From positions 1 to 64,000 of the forward strand of contig LPNY01000209.1 of the NCBI GenBank assembly GCA_001655195.1: a DNA stretch of 64,000 nt. Direction: 5' to 3'. The stretch's first letter is position 1. The number at the start of each line of letters is the position of its first letter. The position numbers were made by a program, and so were the translations under genes. The stretch is from Arcobacter sp. EP1. GTDB lineage: Bacteria > Campylobacterota > Campylobacteria > Campylobacterales > Arcobacteraceae. The notes below the pieces were generated by a model. It did not search any database. It had not been told where the DNA came from and was given only the letters and a program-made list of their open reading frames with translations. Shown in pieces: positions 23,480-47,071 of the stretch.

Positions 23480-23542
23480 ATTGATAATAAATATCAATTA
23501 ACTTTAAGTTTTTATGTGTATACTTTGATAATTATTATCAAT
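23480..23542 (+). promoter_or_regulatory. Two Fur boxes before the two small genes
   Basis: ATTGATAATAAATATCAAT (23480-23498) and TTTGATAATTATTATCAAT (23524-23542) are both strong palindromes of the Fur type. The second ends 17 bases before the ATG at 23560. Confidence 0.75.
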
Positions 23543-23559
23543 AAAGAAAAGGAATATCA

Positions 23560-23760
23560 ATGAGTGAATTATTAGTCAACAAATTAAATACGTTTCAAAC
23601 TTTTAAAGTTGATTCTAGAAAGAAGAGTATTATCAATTTGAACTGCGCTAAAAGCGTTAACTTTGACGATTTTTTTGAGATTTCTCATATATTAGATTCA
23701 TCTTATTTAAATTATAGGGTTGATGATAAACTCAATATCATTGTACTGGGGAAAAAATGA
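23560..23760 (+). CDS. Fur-linked 66-residue protein, unknown
   Basis: A soluble 66-residue protein (starts MSELLVNKLNTF, ends LNIIVLGKK) with AAAAGG before the ATG and two Fur boxes in its promoter. The final part (SYLNYRVDDKLNIIVLGKK) has the beta-strand look of the haemin-uptake HemP tail, but the diagnostic residues are not convincing, so I leave it unnamed. It overlaps the next small gene by 4 bp (ATGA). Expression under iron limitation is inferred. Confidence 0.65.
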   Translation: MSELLVNKLNTFQTFKVDSRKKSIINLNCAKSVNFDDFFEISHILDSSYLNYRVDDKLNIIVLGKK

Positions 23761-23933
23761 GTACTCATAAAAAATATCTTGATTTTGAGACTTTACAAAT
23801 ACAGTTTAATGAACTCAAAATGGAACTACTCATTGAAGAGAATGAGATTAGAAAAGTAAAAACTAATGATTCCTCAATACAAAACTCAAAACATAGCTAC
23901 GAAAAAAATCAAAAAGACAATAGAAAACAGTAA
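23757..23933 (+). CDS. Fur-linked 58-residue helical protein, unknown
   Basis: A 58-codon frame starting with an ATGA overlap with the previous stop. The first 35 residues form a strongly amphipathic, glutamate- and leucine-rich helix (QFNELKMELLIEENEIRK). The rest is polar and low in complexity (Asn, Lys, Ser, Gln). No membrane segment is seen. Tight coupling to the 66-residue gene and the codon pattern argue that it is real. Function unknown. Confidence 0.55.
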   Translation: MSTHKKYLDFETLQIQFNELKMELLIEENEIRKVKTNDSSIQNSKHSYEKNQKDNRKQ

Positions 23934-24063: not shown

Positions 24064-25170
24064 ATGACAAAAAAACTAAGTTTAGTAACAAGTGCTTTAC
24101 TAATTACATCAAGTGCTGCTTTCGCGGATTCAAATTCAATCAAAGAAGCATTCGCAAATGGTTCAACTTCTGGTGATTTATCTGTTTATACAGAAAAAGG
24201 TACGACTACAGGATCTGCAGATTCTGGATTTACTGCAGGTTCAGTTGGCGTAAACTATGAAACAGATTCATTTAATGGATTCAGTGTATCATTAGGTTTT
24301 AGAGGAAACCATGAACTTGGTGAAGAGAAAGAGAATGATTACGAGGGAAATCATGAAAACAGTAGTATCGTGCATACTGCGGCAATTAAATATGCAAATG
24401 ATGACTTCTCTATCTCTGCTGGTAGACAAGAAATTGACCTAGAGTGGTTAGGTGATTACAATGAAGGTGTAGTAGTTGGTATTACAGCTATTCCTGATAC
24501 AACAGTTGTACTTGGATATACAAATAGACAAGCTGCAATTGCAGAAGATGAAAGTAAAAACTTTGCTAGATTTGATCACTATGATGGAAGTAAAACACAA
24601 GCATACGTTGCAGACGTAAAATACGAAGGTTTCGAAAATACATTAGTAAACCCATACTATTACACAGCTGATGGTATTGCTAATTACTATGGATTAAAAG
24701 TTGAGTACAATAATGATATGTTTGGAATCACTGGACAATTTGCATCAAGTTCTGAAGATAACCCAGCAAACAAAGATGGTGAAATTATCGGAGTTGAAGC
24801 AAGAGCTAACGTAGCTGGTTTTGCATTAGCACTTGGACATATTGCAACTGATTCTAAAGGTGGTGTAGGTTCAATCACTGCATTAGGTGAAAATATCTCT
24901 CCAACAGAAGAGATTGATGATCAAGTATATGGTACAGATGCATCTTCAACATATGGTTCAATTGGTTATACAATTGCTGACATTGAGTTAGGAGCACTTT
25001 ACGTAGATACAGAGTATTTAGATACGACTAAAAAAGATGCAAATGAATTAACACTTACAGCAGGATACAATATTACTGAAGAGTTAGCACTATCTCTTAG
25101 ATTCACAGATTACGAAGTGGATAACGTAGATTCAGATAAAATTGCAGCTAGCATTGTATACTCTTTCTAA
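24064..25170 (+). CDS. Outer-membrane porin (beta-barrel)
   Basis: A 368-residue outer-membrane protein. A signal peptide of about 21 residues (MTKKLSLVTSALL...AFA) is followed by alternating beta-strand segments rich in Gly, Tyr, Asn and acidic loops. It ends in a strand with terminal phenylalanine (KIAASIVYSF), the usual outer-membrane assembly signal. The size and Campylobacterota context fit a general or iron-regulated porin rather than a TonB receptor, which would be twice as long and carry a plug. Fur boxes lie upstream and a hairpin terminator downstream. The substrate is unknown; a role in permeability under iron limitation is inferred. Confidence 0.88.
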   Translation: MTKKLSLVTSALLITSSAAFADSNSIKEAFANGSTSGDLSVYTEKGTTTGSADSGFTAGSVGVNYETDSFNGFSVSLGFRGNHELGEEKENDYEGNHENSSIVHTAAIKYANDDFSISAGRQEIDLEWLGDYNEGVVVGITAIPDTTVVLGYTNRQAAIAEDESKNFARFDHYDGSKTQAYVADVKYEGFENTLVNPYYYTADGIANYYGLKVEYNNDMFGITGQFASSSEDNPANKDGEIIGVEARANVAGFALALGHIATDSKGGVGSITALGENISPTEEIDDQVYGTDASSTYGSIGYTIADIELGALYVDTEYLDTTKKDANELTLTAGYNITEELALSLRFTDYEVDNVDSDKIAASIVYSF

Positions 25171-25191: not shown

Positions 25192-25227
25192 CAAAAAGGG
25201 AAACATTAAATTGTTTTCCTTTTTTTA
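25192..25227 (+). terminator. Terminator of the porin gene
   Basis: The inverted repeat AGGGAAACA / TGTTTTCCT (one G-U pair) is followed by seven T residues, about 25 bases past the porin stop. Confidence 0.8.
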
Positions 25228-25254
25228 TACATAAAAAGAAAAAGAATTAAAATT

Positions 25255-25308
25255 TATTGATAACAACTATCAATATTAATATATCTCTAAGTTTATTTCC
25301 ATTATAAT
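25255..25308 (+). promoter_or_regulatory. Fur box and -10 of a candidate small RNA
   Basis: TATTGATAACAACTATCAATA (25255-25275) is a Fur-type inverted repeat, and TATAAT at 25303-25308 is a consensus -10. No credible start codon with a ribosome site follows before a strong terminator, so the promoter probably drives a non-coding RNA. Confidence 0.6.
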
Positions 25309-25314
25309 TTTTCC

Positions 25315-25493
25315 AGTGATTTCAAGAGTGGCATCTAGAATCATCTTCTAAATACTCAAGGTAAGATTAACCAGCGGCATTGTTTAATCTTCATCTTAAT
25401 CCTTGTAGTTCTATACTGCCATATACAACAACAATCTTGAGTATTTAACTCCTAACTAAACGAAGAAGTGAAGCAATTCACTTCTTTTTTTTT
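25315..25493 (+). ncRNA. Candidate Fur-controlled structured small RNA
   Basis: A segment of about 180 nt between an apparent promoter and an intrinsic terminator (25463-25493: ten perfect pairs, AAGAAGTGAA / TTCACTTCTT, a GCAA loop, then nine T). Inside it, AAATACTCAAG (25350-25360) and CTTGAGTATTT (25436-25446) are perfect 11-bp complements that close a domain. Within that domain AAGATTAA / TTAATCTT and TTGTA / TACAA form further stems, giving a multi-branch fold. The only frame noticed starts with GTG, has 11 codons and lacks a ribosome site. By position and Fur box it could be an iron-responsive sRNA. It does not match tmRNA, SRP RNA or RNase P motifs. Ends are estimates. Confidence 0.6.
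25463..25493 (+). terminator. Strong intrinsic terminator of the candidate sRNA
   Basis: A 10-bp perfect stem with a GNRA-type GCAA loop, followed by nine T residues. It separates the RNA unit from the next Fur-box promoter. Confidence 0.85.
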
Positions 25494-25515
25494 GCACTTT
25501 TTTTCTTAAAACTTT

Positions 25516-25588
25516 ATGATATTCATTATCAATATTAATATAGAATTAAGATTACTTCATGTAGTATACTAATAACGATTATCAATAA
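25516..25588 (+). promoter_or_regulatory. Fur boxes of the DUF2325-flavodoxin operon
   Basis: ATGATATTCATTATCAAT (25516-25533) and AATAACGATTATCAAT near 25571-25586 are Fur-type sites; the second ends 12 bases before the leader ATG at 25599. Confidence 0.7.
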
Positions 25589-25598
25589 GGGAGCAAAT

Positions 25599-25667
25599 AT
25601 GCATTTATTTGAAATTGACGTTCAGAATAAAAAAGATTTAATTAAACCTACTGGGTGTACTTGTTAA
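25599..25667 (+). CDS. 22-residue leader microprotein ending in Cys-Thr-Cys
   Basis: A short frame of 22 codons (starts MHLFEID, ends KPTGCTC) with a very good ribosome site, AAGGGAG, seven bases before the ATG. It directly follows a Fur box. Its stop TAA is part of the TAAGGAG that serves as the ribosome site of the next gene, so its translation could control DUF2325 translation. The two cysteine codons just before the stop are what one expects of a cysteine- or metal-responsive leader, or of a small metal-binding or modified peptide. This is inference; no family is recognised. Confidence 0.55.
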   Translation: MHLFEIDVQNKKDLIKPTGCTC

Positions 25668-27385: not shown

Positions 27386-27411
27386 AGGTTAAGGTTTTGG
27401 CCTTAATCTTT
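27384..27411. terminator. Bidirectional terminator between fldA and fur
   Basis: An 11-bp stem, AAAGGTTAAGG / CCTTAATCTTT (one G-U in one direction), lies between the convergent fldA and fur genes and reaches the fur stop codon. Confidence 0.7.
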
Positions 27412-27850
27412 AATCTTGACAATCTCCACATGTTCCATACAGTTGCATTGAGTGGCTTGTAATTTTAAATTTATTTTTCTTAGCAATTCGATCTTGGCGT
27501 TTTTCAATTTCATCATCTAAAAATTCAACAATCTTACCACATGAAGTACAAATTAGATGATCGTGATGTTCTTTTTGATTACTTTCATACTTTTTACCAT
27601 CTGCACCAAAAGTAATAGAAGTAATTAAATTAACCTCTTCTAGAAAACCTAAAGCACGGTAAACAGTTGCAATTCCTACATTAGATTCTGGGTGTTTTGT
27701 TTTAATCTCATTATAGACTTCTTCAGCACTTAAATGCCCATCAGCATTCATAAGAATCTTTAAGACAATTTCTCGTTGTTCAGTATATTTGAGACCTTTT
27801 TGTTTAACAATTTTCTTTAGTTCTTCAATTGTATCTTCGTTTGTTGACAT
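27410..27850 (-). CDS. fur: Ferric uptake regulator Fur
   Basis: A 146-residue Fur. The N-terminal winged helix includes GLKYTEQREIVLKIL and GIATVYRALGFLEE. The dimer/metal domain has EHHDHLICTSCGKIVEF with the HHDH and CTSC ligands, and the second zinc pair is CGDC at the C terminus. The segment ITSITFGADGKKYES and the GTCGDC ending resemble C. jejuni Fur much more than PerR. It is monocistronic, convergent with fldA, and its promoter shows no evident Fur box. It presumably reads the many palindromic boxes between 19.6 and 47 kb. Confidence 0.93.
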   Translation of the reverse strand: MSTNEDTIEELKKIVKQKGLKYTEQREIVLKILMNADGHLSAEEVYNEIKTKHPESNVGIATVYRALGFLEEVNLITSITFGADGKKYESNQKEHHDHLICTSCGKIVEFLDDEIEKRQDRIAKKNKFKITSHSMQLYGTCGDCQD

Positions 27851-32760: not shown

Positions 32761-32985
32761 TTGAAATTAAATGAATTGCATAAAGGCAATAGTGGAACAA
32801 TTAAAAAAATTCACGCAGATAAAACACTCAAATCTCGATTTAACTCTTTTGGTATTACCAAAGGTCAAAAGATAACCGTGGAAGAAATCACTCTAGCAAA
32901 AGAGACCATTGAAATTAAGATTGGTAGAACAAAAATAGCACTTCGCGTTTCAGAAGCTCAAAATATTGAGGTCGAAGCATGCTAG
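32761..32985 (+). CDS. feoA: Ferrous iron transport protein A
   Basis: A 74-residue FeoA, the small SH3-like cytosolic partner of FeoB. The standard N terminus KLNELHKGNSGTIKKIHAD, the RFNSFGITKGQ segment and the final ALRVSEAQNIEV are all present. The start is a TTG; the nearby ATG is out of frame, and AGGAAG precedes the TTG. It overlaps feoB by 7 bp and has a Fur box immediately upstream. Confidence 0.93.
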   Translation: MKLNELHKGNSGTIKKIHADKTLKSRFNSFGITKGQKITVEEITLAKETIEIKIGRTKIALRVSEAQNIEVEAC

Positions 32986-35105
32986 GAGCAACAAACTTTA
33001 AAGAAGAAAAAATCATTAAAATTGCCCTAGTTGGGCAACCAAATGTTGGTAAATCAATGCTTATTAATTCTATTGGAAATGCCCGACTAAAAGTTGGAAA
33101 TTTTTCAGGGGTTACGGTTGAGAAAAAACAAATCACCTTTAAACATAATGAATATAAATTTTTAGTGACCGATTTACCAGGTTCTTACTCTCTTAATGAT
33201 TACACCCTAGAAGAAAAAGTTACCAAAGAGTATCTAGAAAATGAAAACTACGACATCATCCTTAATGTTGTAGACTCAACAAATTTAGAGCGAAATCTCT
33301 ATTTAACATCAGAACTTTTAGCTCTTGATAAAAAAATGGTTGTTGCACTAAATATGATAGATGAAGCGAATAATGAAGGCATCTCAATTGATGAAAAACA
33401 AGTGAGTAAACTATTAGGAAAACCGTGTGTTAAAACATCTGCAAAAGATAATTTAGGAATTGACAAACTTCTTACTGCACTTGTTTCAAAATATGAATCT
33501 CCTAAATTAGAATCCAAATTGATCTTTTCAGATGTAATCGAAGAAGAGATAGCCCATATTTCTAAACTACTTAATGCAAAAAAATATAAAAGCAATGTAG
33601 ACTATCGAGAAATTGCCATTAAACTCTTACAAGAGGATAAAGCAACCTACTTAAAATTTCATGATGAACCTATTTGGATAGAGTTACAGCCACTCTTATC
33701 CCATGCCCTCAATCATATCTATATTCACTATGATACAAAAGATTTAGAAGAGATCTTTAGTGATGAAAAACACGCTTTTTCAAAGGGAATTGTTACTGAA
33801 ACCGTTAAAACAAAAACTGAACAACAAAAAGATTTAACCTCAAAAATTGATTCTATTTTGATTCATAAGTTTTTTGGTATCCCTATTTTTCTATTTTTTA
33901 TGTGGTCACTTTTTCAACTCACCTTTGAGCTTGGAAATATCCCTATGGATATGATTGATGCATTCTTTGCAAATCTTATTGATGGTACAAAAAATATTTT
34001 AGGTGACAATGAACTCTCTTCTATGATCGCAGATGGTGCCATTGCTGGTGTTGGAGCAGTTGTTCTATTTGTTCCTAACATTGTTATTCTATTCTTTGGT
34101 ATTGCCCTACTTGAAACCACAGGATATATGAGCCGGGTTGCTTTTTTACTGGATGGTTTTTTTCACAAGTTTGGCCTACATGGTAAATCGTTTATTCCAC
34201 TAGTATCAGGATTTGGGTGTTCAGTTCCAGCTTATATGGCTGCACGAACATTAAAAAATGAAAAAGATAGACTCTTAACTCTTTTTATTATTGGTTTTAT
34301 GAGTTGTGGAGCAAGACTTCCTATTTATGTTCTTTTTACCGGGGCATTTTTTGAAGCTGACCAAGCAGGAAATATTCTATTTCTTATCTATATTGGTGGA
34401 GCTATTTTAGGATTAATTGCAGCAAAAGTACTTAAGGTTATGGTCTTTAAAAATGAAGATGAACCTTTTGTAATGGAGATGCCAAAATATCGACTTCCAT
34501 CTACTAAACTTATTTGGCACACAGTATCTAACTCAGCGTGGATGTATTTACGAAAAGCGGGTACTTTTATTTTGGCTGCTTCTATTTTAATTTGGATTGC
34601 AAGTAACTACCCAAAACAACTTGAGTATGAAGAAACAATGTCTGTAAAAATGGAACAACTTTCAACTGATGAAGAAAAGGCAGCATTAGAAAATGAGATT
34701 GCCCTTTATGGTTTAGAAAACTCGTACCTTGGAAAACTAGGTAAATTTTCAGAGCCACTTTTTGCACCATTAGGATTTGACTGGAAAATGGCAGTTGCAT
34801 TAGAAACAGGTCTTGCCGCAAAAGAAATTGTTGTATCAACATTAGGAATACTCTATGGCTTAGGAGAAGAACACGATGAAGCAAGTGATACCTTAATTGA
34901 AAAAATCAAAAACAATATTCCACTACCAGCTGCGATTTCATTTATCGTATTTGTTATGATTTATCTACCATGTTTAGCAGCATCAATGGTCTTTATGAGA
35001 GAAGCTGGCGGAGCTAAATACTTAGGTTACCTTTTTGTCTTTACAACAGGAACAGCATGGGTTCTGTCATTTATTGCTTACAACATCACAAAACTATTGA
35101 TGTAA
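32979..35105 (+). CDS. feoB: Ferrous iron transporter FeoB
   Basis: A 708-residue inner-membrane Fe(II) transporter. The N-terminal G domain carries G1 GQPNVGKSM (near residue 19), G2 FSGVTVEK, G3 DLPGSY and G4 NMIDE. The C-terminal half has two gate regions with the conserved cysteines in SGFGCSVPAYMAARTL and GFMSCGARLPIYV, followed by further helices. Length is slightly under E. coli FeoB and typical of Campylobacterota. It overlaps feoA; no feoC is seen. A strong hairpin terminator follows. Confidence 0.96.
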   Translation: MLGATNFKEEKIIKIALVGQPNVGKSMLINSIGNARLKVGNFSGVTVEKKQITFKHNEYKFLVTDLPGSYSLNDYTLEEKVTKEYLENENYDIILNVVDSTNLERNLYLTSELLALDKKMVVALNMIDEANNEGISIDEKQVSKLLGKPCVKTSAKDNLGIDKLLTALVSKYESPKLESKLIFSDVIEEEIAHISKLLNAKKYKSNVDYREIAIKLLQEDKATYLKFHDEPIWIELQPLLSHALNHIYIHYDTKDLEEIFSDEKHAFSKGIVTETVKTKTEQQKDLTSKIDSILIHKFFGIPIFLFFMWSLFQLTFELGNIPMDMIDAFFANLIDGTKNILGDNELSSMIADGAIAGVGAVVLFVPNIVILFFGIALLETTGYMSRVAFLLDGFFHKFGLHGKSFIPLVSGFGCSVPAYMAARTLKNEKDRLLTLFIIGFMSCGARLPIYVLFTGAFFEADQAGNILFLIYIGGAILGLIAAKVLKVMVFKNEDEPFVMEMPKYRLPSTKLIWHTVSNSAWMYLRKAGTFILAASILIWIASNYPKQLEYEETMSVKMEQLSTDEEKAALENEIALYGLENSYLGKLGKFSEPLFAPLGFDWKMAVALETGLAAKEIVVSTLGILYGLGEEHDEASDTLIEKIKNNIPLPAAISFIVFVMIYLPCLAASMVFMREAGGAKYLGYLFVFTTGTAWVLSFIAYNITKLLM

Positions 35106-44791: not shown

Positions 44792-46186
44792 TCACGCGAC
44801 ACTTTTAGTCTCAATAACTGTCTTTTCATTTCGATGATTATAAATATTCAATCGTGAGTGACTCTCGTCATCCAAAATCTTTTGTGCGGCCATTAAACCT
44901 GTCTCCATTGCAGTATCTAAGAAAATGTATCTAAAAGTTCCTTGCCTACCTGCCATAATAAGGTTATCAAATTGGTTTAAGTACTCAATGGTTTTATCTC
45001 TTTTTTCACTGTATTCTATGTCCATTAAGGTATACGCATGTTCTGTTGTAAAAGAGAAGTAATCCACGATTTTATCTTCAATATCAAACTTTAACCTGCT
45101 TAAATCTTTTTTAACAATAGCTAAAAGTTCATCTTCATTCATATCCCATATTTCATCCCCTTTATTACAAGGGATCTCAAGCATAATAGAACTTTTTCCT
45201 TGTGGAGCCATGGATTCTGACCTTCGTTTTGGTTCTTGAATACGTGTTGGCAATAAATCATAATCACTCACATACTGCCACGTATGAGGTGAAAAGTCCT
45301 CAATATCCAAACCTATACATAAAAATCGAAGACTTCTAAATTTTAACCCGCTCTCAAAACCTAACTGTTTTGACATCTCATTTAAAGGCATAGTTGAAAT
45401 AATATTTTGAGCATGGAAACTTTTTGTTTGTGTTTTAACTGTTTCAATTTTATTATCACTATAAATAAAACTTTCAACACCTTCATTAACAAAGATTTCT
45501 CCACCTAAAGCTTCAAACTTTTTTGCCATCTTTTTAGGCAATCCACCAAAACCAAATTTTGGATAGCGGTAACTTTTGGCATAGGTTCGTGCTGTTTTTT
45601 TGTTTTTAAACAAAAGTTTCTTTGCTACATCTTTTAAATCAAGTAAAGATATTCTCTGTCCCGCCCAATCAGCACTCAATTTATCAGGTTCAATGCCCCA
45701 CAGCTTTTTTGTATATGGGCCAAAAAAGTTATCATAAAGGGTTTTTCCAAAACGTGAACTAATCCATGATTTAAAACTACTATCATCGGGGTTCACCATT
45801 TTAAATATGATTTTTAGGGTATCAATTGAAGCACCAAAGAGTAATTTAAAAGGTGCCACGCTAAAAAGGTTTTTTAAATTTAAAGGGTACTCATACACCC
45901 TGTCTTGATGAAGAATCACTGAACTTCTTTGAGCAAATAGTAAATCATCACCTAAAACCTCTTCAACAAAAGAGAGTAAAACTTCGTTATTCGTAATAAA
46001 CCTGTGTCCCCCATAATCAAAACGATAGGTTTCACCATTTGTATATAACTCTTCGGTTTTACACTGTCCACCAACAACACCCTCTTTTTCTAAAAGAATC
46101 ACTTTTTTACCATTTCTAGCAAGTTCAATCCCAGCCATAAGACCGGCAACTCCTCCACCTATTATTAATACATCACACTTTTGCAT
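44792..46186 (-). CDS. FAD-dependent oxidoreductase (amine-oxidase/UDP-galactopyranose-mutase-like)
   Basis: A 464-residue flavoprotein. The FAD-binding loop is DVLIIGGGVAGLMAGIELARNGKKVILLEK at the N terminus, and the second FAD contact is the C-terminal NLIMAGRQGTFRYIFLDTAMETG. The segment YRFDYGGHRFIT and the long helical middle (GPYTKKLWGIEPDKLSADWAGQRI) match oxidoreductases found with glycosyltransferases in surface-sugar loci. Its start overlaps the FTR1 gene by 14 bp, so the two are co-translated, which is unusual. Either a redox role in iron uptake or a sugar-modification role is possible; family resemblance favours the latter. Confidence 0.82.
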   Translation of the reverse strand: MQKCDVLIIGGGVAGLMAGIELARNGKKVILLEKEGVVGGQCKTEELYTNGETYRFDYGGHRFITNNEVLLSFVEEVLGDDLLFAQRSSVILHQDRVYEYPLNLKNLFSVAPFKLLFGASIDTLKIIFKMVNPDDSSFKSWISSRFGKTLYDNFFGPYTKKLWGIEPDKLSADWAGQRISLLDLKDVAKKLLFKNKKTARTYAKSYRYPKFGFGGLPKKMAKKFEALGGEIFVNEGVESFIYSDNKIETVKTQTKSFHAQNIISTMPLNEMSKQLGFESGLKFRSLRFLCIGLDIEDFSPHTWQYVSDYDLLPTRIQEPKRRSESMAPQGKSSIMLEIPCNKGDEIWDMNEDELLAIVKKDLSRLKFDIEDKIVDYFSFTTEHAYTLMDIEYSEKRDKTIEYLNQFDNLIMAGRQGTFRYIFLDTAMETGLMAAQKILDDESHSRLNIYNHRNEKTVIETKSVA

Positions 46187-46991
46187 AGGAGTAAGTTCTT
46201 TTCCATAAGAAGATTGCAGTTAACATATAAAATGACCACGAAACTAAATGAAGTAGTGTTGGAGAAGAGTTATATCCAAACAGAGCTCTTAAAAATGTTC
46301 CAAATAATCCCCTATCATCCAAGATAAACGATATATCATATACAACAGGTATGACTGTAGGTAATAGCTCCGCTGCTTGCATCATTGAAATAGCACTTCC
46401 AAACAATCCACCAGCAATGATTAAAATTAACAATCCTGTATATTTAAAAAATGATTGCAGTGGGATATTTCGAGCACCTTTCATAAGAATATAAACTAAA
46501 ACAAGGGAAAGGAAAAGTCCTATAACTGCACCTATGAGCCCTTGCTCCATAGTAAAACCTTCAGTAAGAGTTAATGAAGAAAAGAAAAGTACCGTTTCAA
46601 AGCCTTCTCTTAAAACAGCTAAGAAAGCTAAAAATACCATACCTAAAATATTACCTGTGGTTACCAATTTTTTAAGGTTTTCTTCGATTTCACCTTTTAT
46701 CTGTTTTGACTGGTTTGCCATCCAAACAACCATGTATGATAATACAACTGTTGCAAAGAGTAAAATAAATATCATCAGATAATGTTGATAAAGTTCATTA
46801 TCCATTCCATAAATAACAACTTGGAAAATATACGCAATAAAAAGAGATACTATGATTCCAATAATAACACCAAGGTAAATAAATTTATTAAATCGTGTTG
46901 CTTGTAGTTTGCCTAAATAGGAGAGAATTATACCAACAATCAGAAAAGCTTCTAAGCCTTCTCTAAAAGTGATTAAGAAAGATGCTAACAT
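46173..46991 (-). CDS. FTR1-family iron permease
   Basis: A 272-residue inner-membrane iron permease of the FTR1/EfeU family with seven predicted helices. Both iron-coordinating REGLE-type motifs are present: FREGLEAFLIV near residue 9 and LREGFETVLFF near residue 127. The long periplasmic N-terminal domain seen in the C. jejuni-type protein is missing. A Fur box lies 21 bases before the ATG. It starts an operon with an FAD enzyme, a periplasmic helical protein and a glycosyltransferase. Confidence 0.92.
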   Translation of the reverse strand: MLASFLITFREGLEAFLIVGIILSYLGKLQATRFNKFIYLGVIIGIIVSLFIAYIFQVVIYGMDNELYQHYLMIFILLFATVVLSYMVVWMANQSKQIKGEIEENLKKLVTTGNILGMVFLAFLAVLREGFETVLFFSSLTLTEGFTMEQGLIGAVIGLFLSLVLVYILMKGARNIPLQSFFKYTGLLILIIAGGLFGSAISMMQAAELLPTVIPVVYDISFILDDRGLFGTFLRALFGYNSSPTLLHLVSWSFYMLTAIFLWKRTYSYAKV

Positions 46992-47011
46992 TGTGTTCCT
47001 TGTAATTAACT

Positions 47012-47030
47012 ATAATAATTGTTATCATTA
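47012..47030 (-). promoter_or_regulatory. Fur box of the FTR1 operon
   Basis: On the minus strand the site reads TAATGATAACAATTATTAT, a good Fur-type palindrome ending 21 bases before the FTR1 start. Confidence 0.7.
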
Positions 47031-47071
47031 TAGTTATTTACACTTAAAAACACACTTAACTATCTAAGTTG

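Follow-up and report, generated by a model that had tools for sequence, protein, structure and literature searches.

The intergenic segment at 25256-25493 (+ strand) makes a well-formed candidate gene for a small RNA under Fur control, limited to one lineage among the genomes searched. At the level of sequence, there is fairly good support for a non-coding unit that Fur controls and that has a promoter and a terminator to itself. With modest confidence, we favour reading it as a stand-alone, Fur-repressed and Hfq-independent sRNA gene, the product of which would pair with Shine-Dalgarno regions. The sequence-only reading had proposed a complete Fur-controlled non-coding unit with a role as iron-response sRNA for its group: Fur box, promoter and terminator are recognizable in the letters, but the role for the group is not supported. 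In the window (the whole stretch of DNA analysed, 64,000 nucleotides), gene context places the unit where it was first located, with a porin gene upstream and the DUF2325/flavodoxin operon downstream. The features are as follows.

24064-25170, Opr-type porin, the upstream neighbour of the unit.
25193-25224 (+), the porin's own terminator, a 13-bp hairpin with a T-rich 3' arm (-13.8 kcal/mol, z -5.0).
25256-25279 (+), Fur box of the unit: palindrome ATTGATA-N5-TATCAAT (25256-25274) with an ATATTAA extension.
25287-25308 (+), putative promoter, a CTAAGTTTATTTCC motif followed by a TATAAT -10 element, placed by 57-nt matches to relatives and a 23-nt matrix.
25315-25493 (+), predicted non-coding transcript of about 175-179 nt.
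25316-25344 (+), predicted 5' hairpin (pair probabilities 0.31-0.99).
25349-25447 (+), predicted domain with a closing stem of 14 pairs, 25349-25362 with 25434-25447 (probabilities 0.77-1.0).
25363-25391 (+), predicted inner hairpin, with 8 firm and 3 less firm pairs by pair probability.
25392-25403 (+), open CU-rich stretch CAUCUUAAUCCU, candidate pairing seed 1 (unpaired probability 0.8-1.0).
25448-25457 (+), open, anti-Shine-Dalgarno-like stretch ACUCCUAACU, candidate seed 2 (unpaired probability 1.0).
25462-25493 (+), intrinsic terminator of the unit (-13.0 kcal/mol, z -5.0).
25516-25538 (+), Fur box that serves the DUF2325 operon, the top-scoring site of the window with the matrix from 27 relatives.
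DUF2325 operon, downstream of this Fur box: a 22-aa micro-ORF (25599-25667), the DUF2325 protein, a frame of 256 aa with unknown product and a long-chain flavodoxin.
27410-27850 (opposite strand), gene of a Fur-family regulator, after the DUF2325 operon.
32979-35105, FeoB, further along the window.
46173-46991, FTR1 iron permease, further along the window.

The genomic setting is an iron-acquisition region. The motif ATTGATA-N5-TATCAAT occurs at four places in the 3.0-Mb genome (23480, 23955, 25256 and 42944), all of them inside the window, and its reversed control occurs at none; the four palindromes mark an iron island with FeoB and FTR1. The Fur-type palindrome first noticed in the unit is confirmed as a perfect 7-5-7 inverted repeat around the spacer acaac. 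To score it, we used a matrix built from all 27 loci of relatives, with the window itself not included. These loci were found with the window's DUF2325 protein, and many carry the names Arcobacter, Aliarcobacter, Poseidonibacter or Malaciobacter. For a handful of loci, L041, L045, L047, L049 and L061 among them, the site that entered the matrix was the one near the start codon. The unit's box reaches 27.5 bits and ranks second among all 23-mers of the window, and the best score in five mononucleotide shuffles of the window is 14.1 bits.

Other parts of the window carry related signals. Upstream of the porin, at 23480-23543 and 23560-23933 (+ strand), two Fur boxes are followed by two small overlapping frames of about 66 and 58 amino acids, as read from the sequence; they probably make up another Fur-controlled small-protein unit. 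The highest stability for base composition among windows of the 64 kb belongs to 46921-47066 (- strand), a fold at the start of FTR1 that overlaps a Fur-like box at 47006. Between the Fur-box promoter of the DUF2325 operon and the DUF2325 gene lies the micro-ORF MHLFEIDVQNKKDLIKPTGCTC (25599-25667, + strand). In 21 of the 27 relatives' loci, DUF2325 is preceded at a distance of 10-16 nt by a peptide with the ending DLVKPTGCTC or a close variant of it, and the PTGCTC-stop coding pattern is present in 18 of 398 genomes of the order, its own included. The product is a conserved peptide with a cysteine at its end, apparently under Fur control, and may serve as a leader peptide or bind a metal.

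The promoter of the unit resembles the DUF2325 promoters of relatives. Its first 57 nt are 84% identical to the DUF2325 promoter region of locus L002 (E about 1e-9 when searched within these loci), and 81%, 78% and 75% identical to those of L003, L063 and L043. A TTAAG-type motif follows the Fur box after 8 nt, with equal spacing in the window's own DUF2325 promoter, and the TATAAT -10 element proposed earlier is present at 25303-25308. With a 23-nt promoter matrix, position 25287 ranks seventh in the window; the matrix takes its sites from 21 of the 27 loci, where a TTAAG motif was accepted in register, and two pairs of these sites are identical. With a 30-nt matrix, the unit's site is not among the top 12. 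As judged by alignment, the resemblance to relatives' DUF2325 promoters is more than chance. Compared with the window's own DUF2325 promoter in a gapped alignment, the part of the unit after the Fur box shows no such signal (1584 of 2000 shuffles reach the score).

The transcript would start about 7 nt after the -10 element and end in the T run. From this arrangement we infer that Fur represses the unit. The centre of the Fur box lies about 49 nt upstream of the presumed start, and a matrix scan found no second Fur box downstream in the unit's promoter (the DUF2325 promoter has one); with this geometry, Fur control may be of another strength and even of the opposite sign.

At its other end, the unit is closed by a terminator first described as a perfect 10-bp stem with nine T residues. 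The hairpin at 25462-25487 has 11 pairs, 10 of them Watson-Crick, and the T run extends to 25493; the nine T are counted after the last C, so that some lie within the stem. Since the porin has a terminator of its own, this second one is not needed by the porin and belongs to the unit. It could also be imagined as part of an attenuator or riboswitch in a leader of the DUF2325 operon, opened by a signal: the unit lies on the same strand directly upstream, and its Fur box resembles the operon's. However, when the terminator hairpin was forbidden, its arms became unpaired and the rest of the fold did not change; no antiterminator appears, which makes an attenuator role unlikely. In addition, a Fur box and a promoter motif of the operon itself are present, its micro-ORF lies downstream of the unit's terminator, and relatives have the operon without the unit. 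We hold a leader function to be improbable, and a separate sRNA gene remains our preferred reading.

The predicted fold departs in details from the first description. The closing stem, given as 11 bp, is there and is longer: 12 Watson-Crick pairs (25349-25360 with 25436-25447) continue into a G-U and a U-A pair. Of the inner stems, 25363-25370 with 25384-25391 is firm (0.74-0.99), but the second hairpin, 25405-25409 with 25415-25419, is weak (about 0.55). Folded with the terminator, 25300-25493 has a z of -5.2, and none of 200 shuffles is as good; the body alone (about 147 nt, without the terminator) has a z of -3.07, equalled by one shuffle in 200. The strong self-complementarity ascribed to it thus holds against shuffles, but it is only moderate against native sequence: z -3.07 or lower is found in 4 of 400 native windows drawn at random, and the energy of the body is equalled or undercut by 566 of 6386 native windows of 146 nt. 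What is strong in the unit is its Fur box and its terminator; the fold is moderate.

These numbers bear on the main rival explanation, namely that the transcript has no regulatory role. In this view, a Fur promoter that was duplicated would fire into the spacer, and the terminator would only shield the DUF2325 operon. The unremarkable energy of the body among native windows speaks for it, and so do the presence of the unit in a single genome and the lack of a target signal (both below). Against it, the body is closed by 12 consecutive Watson-Crick pairs and has a z of -3.07, and a strong terminator need not be kept by an accidental transcript. We regard such a by-product as possible though rather unlikely, and we place a functional sRNA ahead of it.

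A coding role is far less probable still. Two short frames could be taken for peptides: one of 22 aa, TTG-started, at 25380-25448 (+), and another of 22 aa, with an ATG, at 25276-25344 (-). However, the + strand of the unit has no ATG-started ORF of at least 20 aa, the TTG frame runs through the closed stem, and no ribosome-binding site is seen by eye. Nor did a conserved short protein turn up in the segment, the body of which has no relative in the genomes searched. The earlier description of the segment as non-coding agrees with this, with the one TTG frame as its exception.

We propose the following mechanism for the sRNA gene. Fur would repress the unit when iron is plentiful and the unit would be transcribed when iron is scarce, together with the flanking porin and the DUF2325-flavodoxin operon. 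The resulting RNA of about 175 nt would consist of the 5' hairpin, the large domain closed by the 14-bp stem and the terminator, and the two pyrimidine-rich stretches CAUCUUAAUCCU and ACUCCUAACU would stay open. These would pair, without Hfq, with Shine-Dalgarno regions of mRNAs and so block their translation under iron limitation. We infer transcription and an sRNA function from the arrangement of the unit; pairing is suggested by analogy with known sRNAs. Pyrimidine-rich stretches of this kind are able to base-pair with Shine-Dalgarno sequences. One sRNA in C. jejuni, CJnc230, is reported to repress translation by binding to ribosome-binding sites (PMC11187230). A profile search for Hfq (PF17209) in 41 genomes, its own and 40 relatives, found none; the control was positive in 5 of 14 known genomes.

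Searches for targets gave no signal. For seed 1, 18 of 200 shuffles have a mean duplex energy as good as the observed one over 49 translation starts in the window; for seed 2, 111 of 200 do. In the whole genome, the Shine-Dalgarno motif complementary to seed 2 has 22 matches, versus 13 for the reversed control, and 10 of the 22 are followed by an open frame of at least 50 aa. Among the 22, a HemL-like aminotransferase (L142) whose Shine-Dalgarno fits seed 2 was considered and rejected, its score being below the HemL cut-offs and the match being just one of 22. Copies or complements of the body elsewhere in the genome amount to 25 weak matches, with E of 0.03 or more. Gene context was viewed for 17 of the 25, and none overlaps, on the complementary strand, the region of a translation start. 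Two come nearest: one is 56 nt upstream of a frame that resembles GyrB (L102), the other 93 nt inside a 106-aa frame resembling ribosomal protein L21 (L107), both frames named by eye.

The body of the unit (25310-25460) has no relative by blastn in 103 other genomes of the family, a set that includes no second genome of the same genus. Ten of them give matches, each of at most 31 nt and scattered over query and strand. A covariance model of the body, made from a single sequence (two identical rows) and applied with stricter filters, found only the window among 104 family genomes. In a sample of 398 genomes of the order, blastn matches in eight other genomes are no longer than 33 nt, five of them in the terminator. 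Among plasmids, nothing beyond a chance match of 27 nt to two Vibrio tapetis records came up for the body, and viral contigs gave no exact 20-mer match. With the body absent from the 103 other family genomes and the target signal missing, the role of iron-response sRNA for the whole group is left unsupported.

The origin of the unit may be traced in part. The gap between porin and DUF2325 measures 506 nt here versus 239-242 nt in L004, L043, L050 and L063, where the likeness of the porin-like gene was judged by eye; relatives thus have the same junction without the unit. The excess of about 265 nt is close to the distance of 259 nt between the unit's Fur box and the operon's. By its looks, the unit is an insertion of roughly 260 bp, or a duplicated promoter, that only this lineage has. 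It also looks young, because its promoter is akin to that of DUF2325 and the extra 260 bp or so sit in a junction that lacks the unit in relatives. In the simplest history, the promoter would have doubled and one copy would now drive a new body. The 57-nt matches to promoters of relatives and the 23-nt matrix speak for such a duplication; the gapped alignment with the window's own DUF2325 promoter and the 30-nt matrix speak against it. In comparisons of the body with the neighbouring porin and operon, by similarity or complementarity, the result is no better than shuffles: 66, 152, 77 and 84 of 200 equal or exceed the observed score.

Tentatively, and with considerable doubt, we extend this to an iron-response sRNA early in its life: a copied Fur-controlled promoter, joined to a new body and terminator in one lineage, that would act on iron-related mRNAs without Hfq. 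If true, this would illustrate how Hfq-less Campylobacterota make RyhB-like regulators anew rather than inherit them. Provided that it is transcribed and has an activity, the unit would give Arcobacteraceae an sRNA under Fur control, where none was recognizable in the literature on Arcobacter and the family searched by titles and abstracts. It would also be another case of RNA-based iron control in bacteria without Hfq, and a regulatory RNA with a promoter traceable to a neighbouring operon. If it is not active, it warns that a Fur box, hairpins and a terminator do not make a conserved regulator.

That the unit belongs to an RNA family already described, be it RyhB, 6S or another, is hardly credible, even though the Fur box and the intrinsic terminator recall RyhB. 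At the gathering score, Rfam has no match for the unit in a search of the whole window; at E up to 10, no more than four matches appear in 25200-25620, all of them sub-threshold: three are to eukaryotic families and the fourth is a minus-strand piece of tmRNA. The unit shares with RyhB of enterobacteria the Fur-box promoter, the intrinsic terminator and the presumed pairing with mRNA, and differs from it in the Rfam family model and in Hfq. Among the RyhB features compared, the Fur box at the promoter is thus seen in the sequence, and neither the family model nor Hfq is matched. With no Hfq gene and no Rfam match, the unit is not a RyhB member. The 6S model has no match in the window; as it finds no 6S anywhere in the unit's own genome either, it has little power in this group. 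That missing 6S probably reflects the limits of the model and not a lost gene; PMC3847290 describes 6S RNA in C. jejuni and H. pylori, and states that non-coding RNAs, 6S excepted, are usually poorly conserved between the two.

Other comparisons are by description. IsaR1 of cyanobacteria is Fur-controlled and Hfq-independent. Like the proposed product of the unit, it is an iron-starvation sRNA outside the RyhB family; its host is unrelated.

The nearest precedents in the same phylum are ncRNA_P and CjNC140 of C. jejuni. In PMC3815106, ncRNA_P is reported to be repressed by iron and by Fur, as measured by qRT-PCR. Like the predicted product of the unit, it is a non-coding transcript with a link to Fur and iron in a host without Hfq; no structural or positional link between the two is known. 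CjNC140 is proposed in PMC10470494 as a RyhB analogue acting on the iron-uptake gene p19, with Fur control posed as a hypothesis. It resembles the unit in its Hfq-less host and in a CU-rich region, which in CjNC140 is the interaction region; it is conserved in thermotolerant Campylobacter, whereas the unit is found in one genome. RyhB equivalents, described at first as little known in this group, are therefore not wholly unknown in the phylum (PMC3815106, PMC10470494). NikS of Helicobacter pylori is likewise an sRNA of this phylum under a metal regulator, but it answers to NikR and nickel instead of Fur and iron (PMC9294342). Altogether, Fur-controlled sRNAs are a kind already known, to which the unit adds a candidate member.
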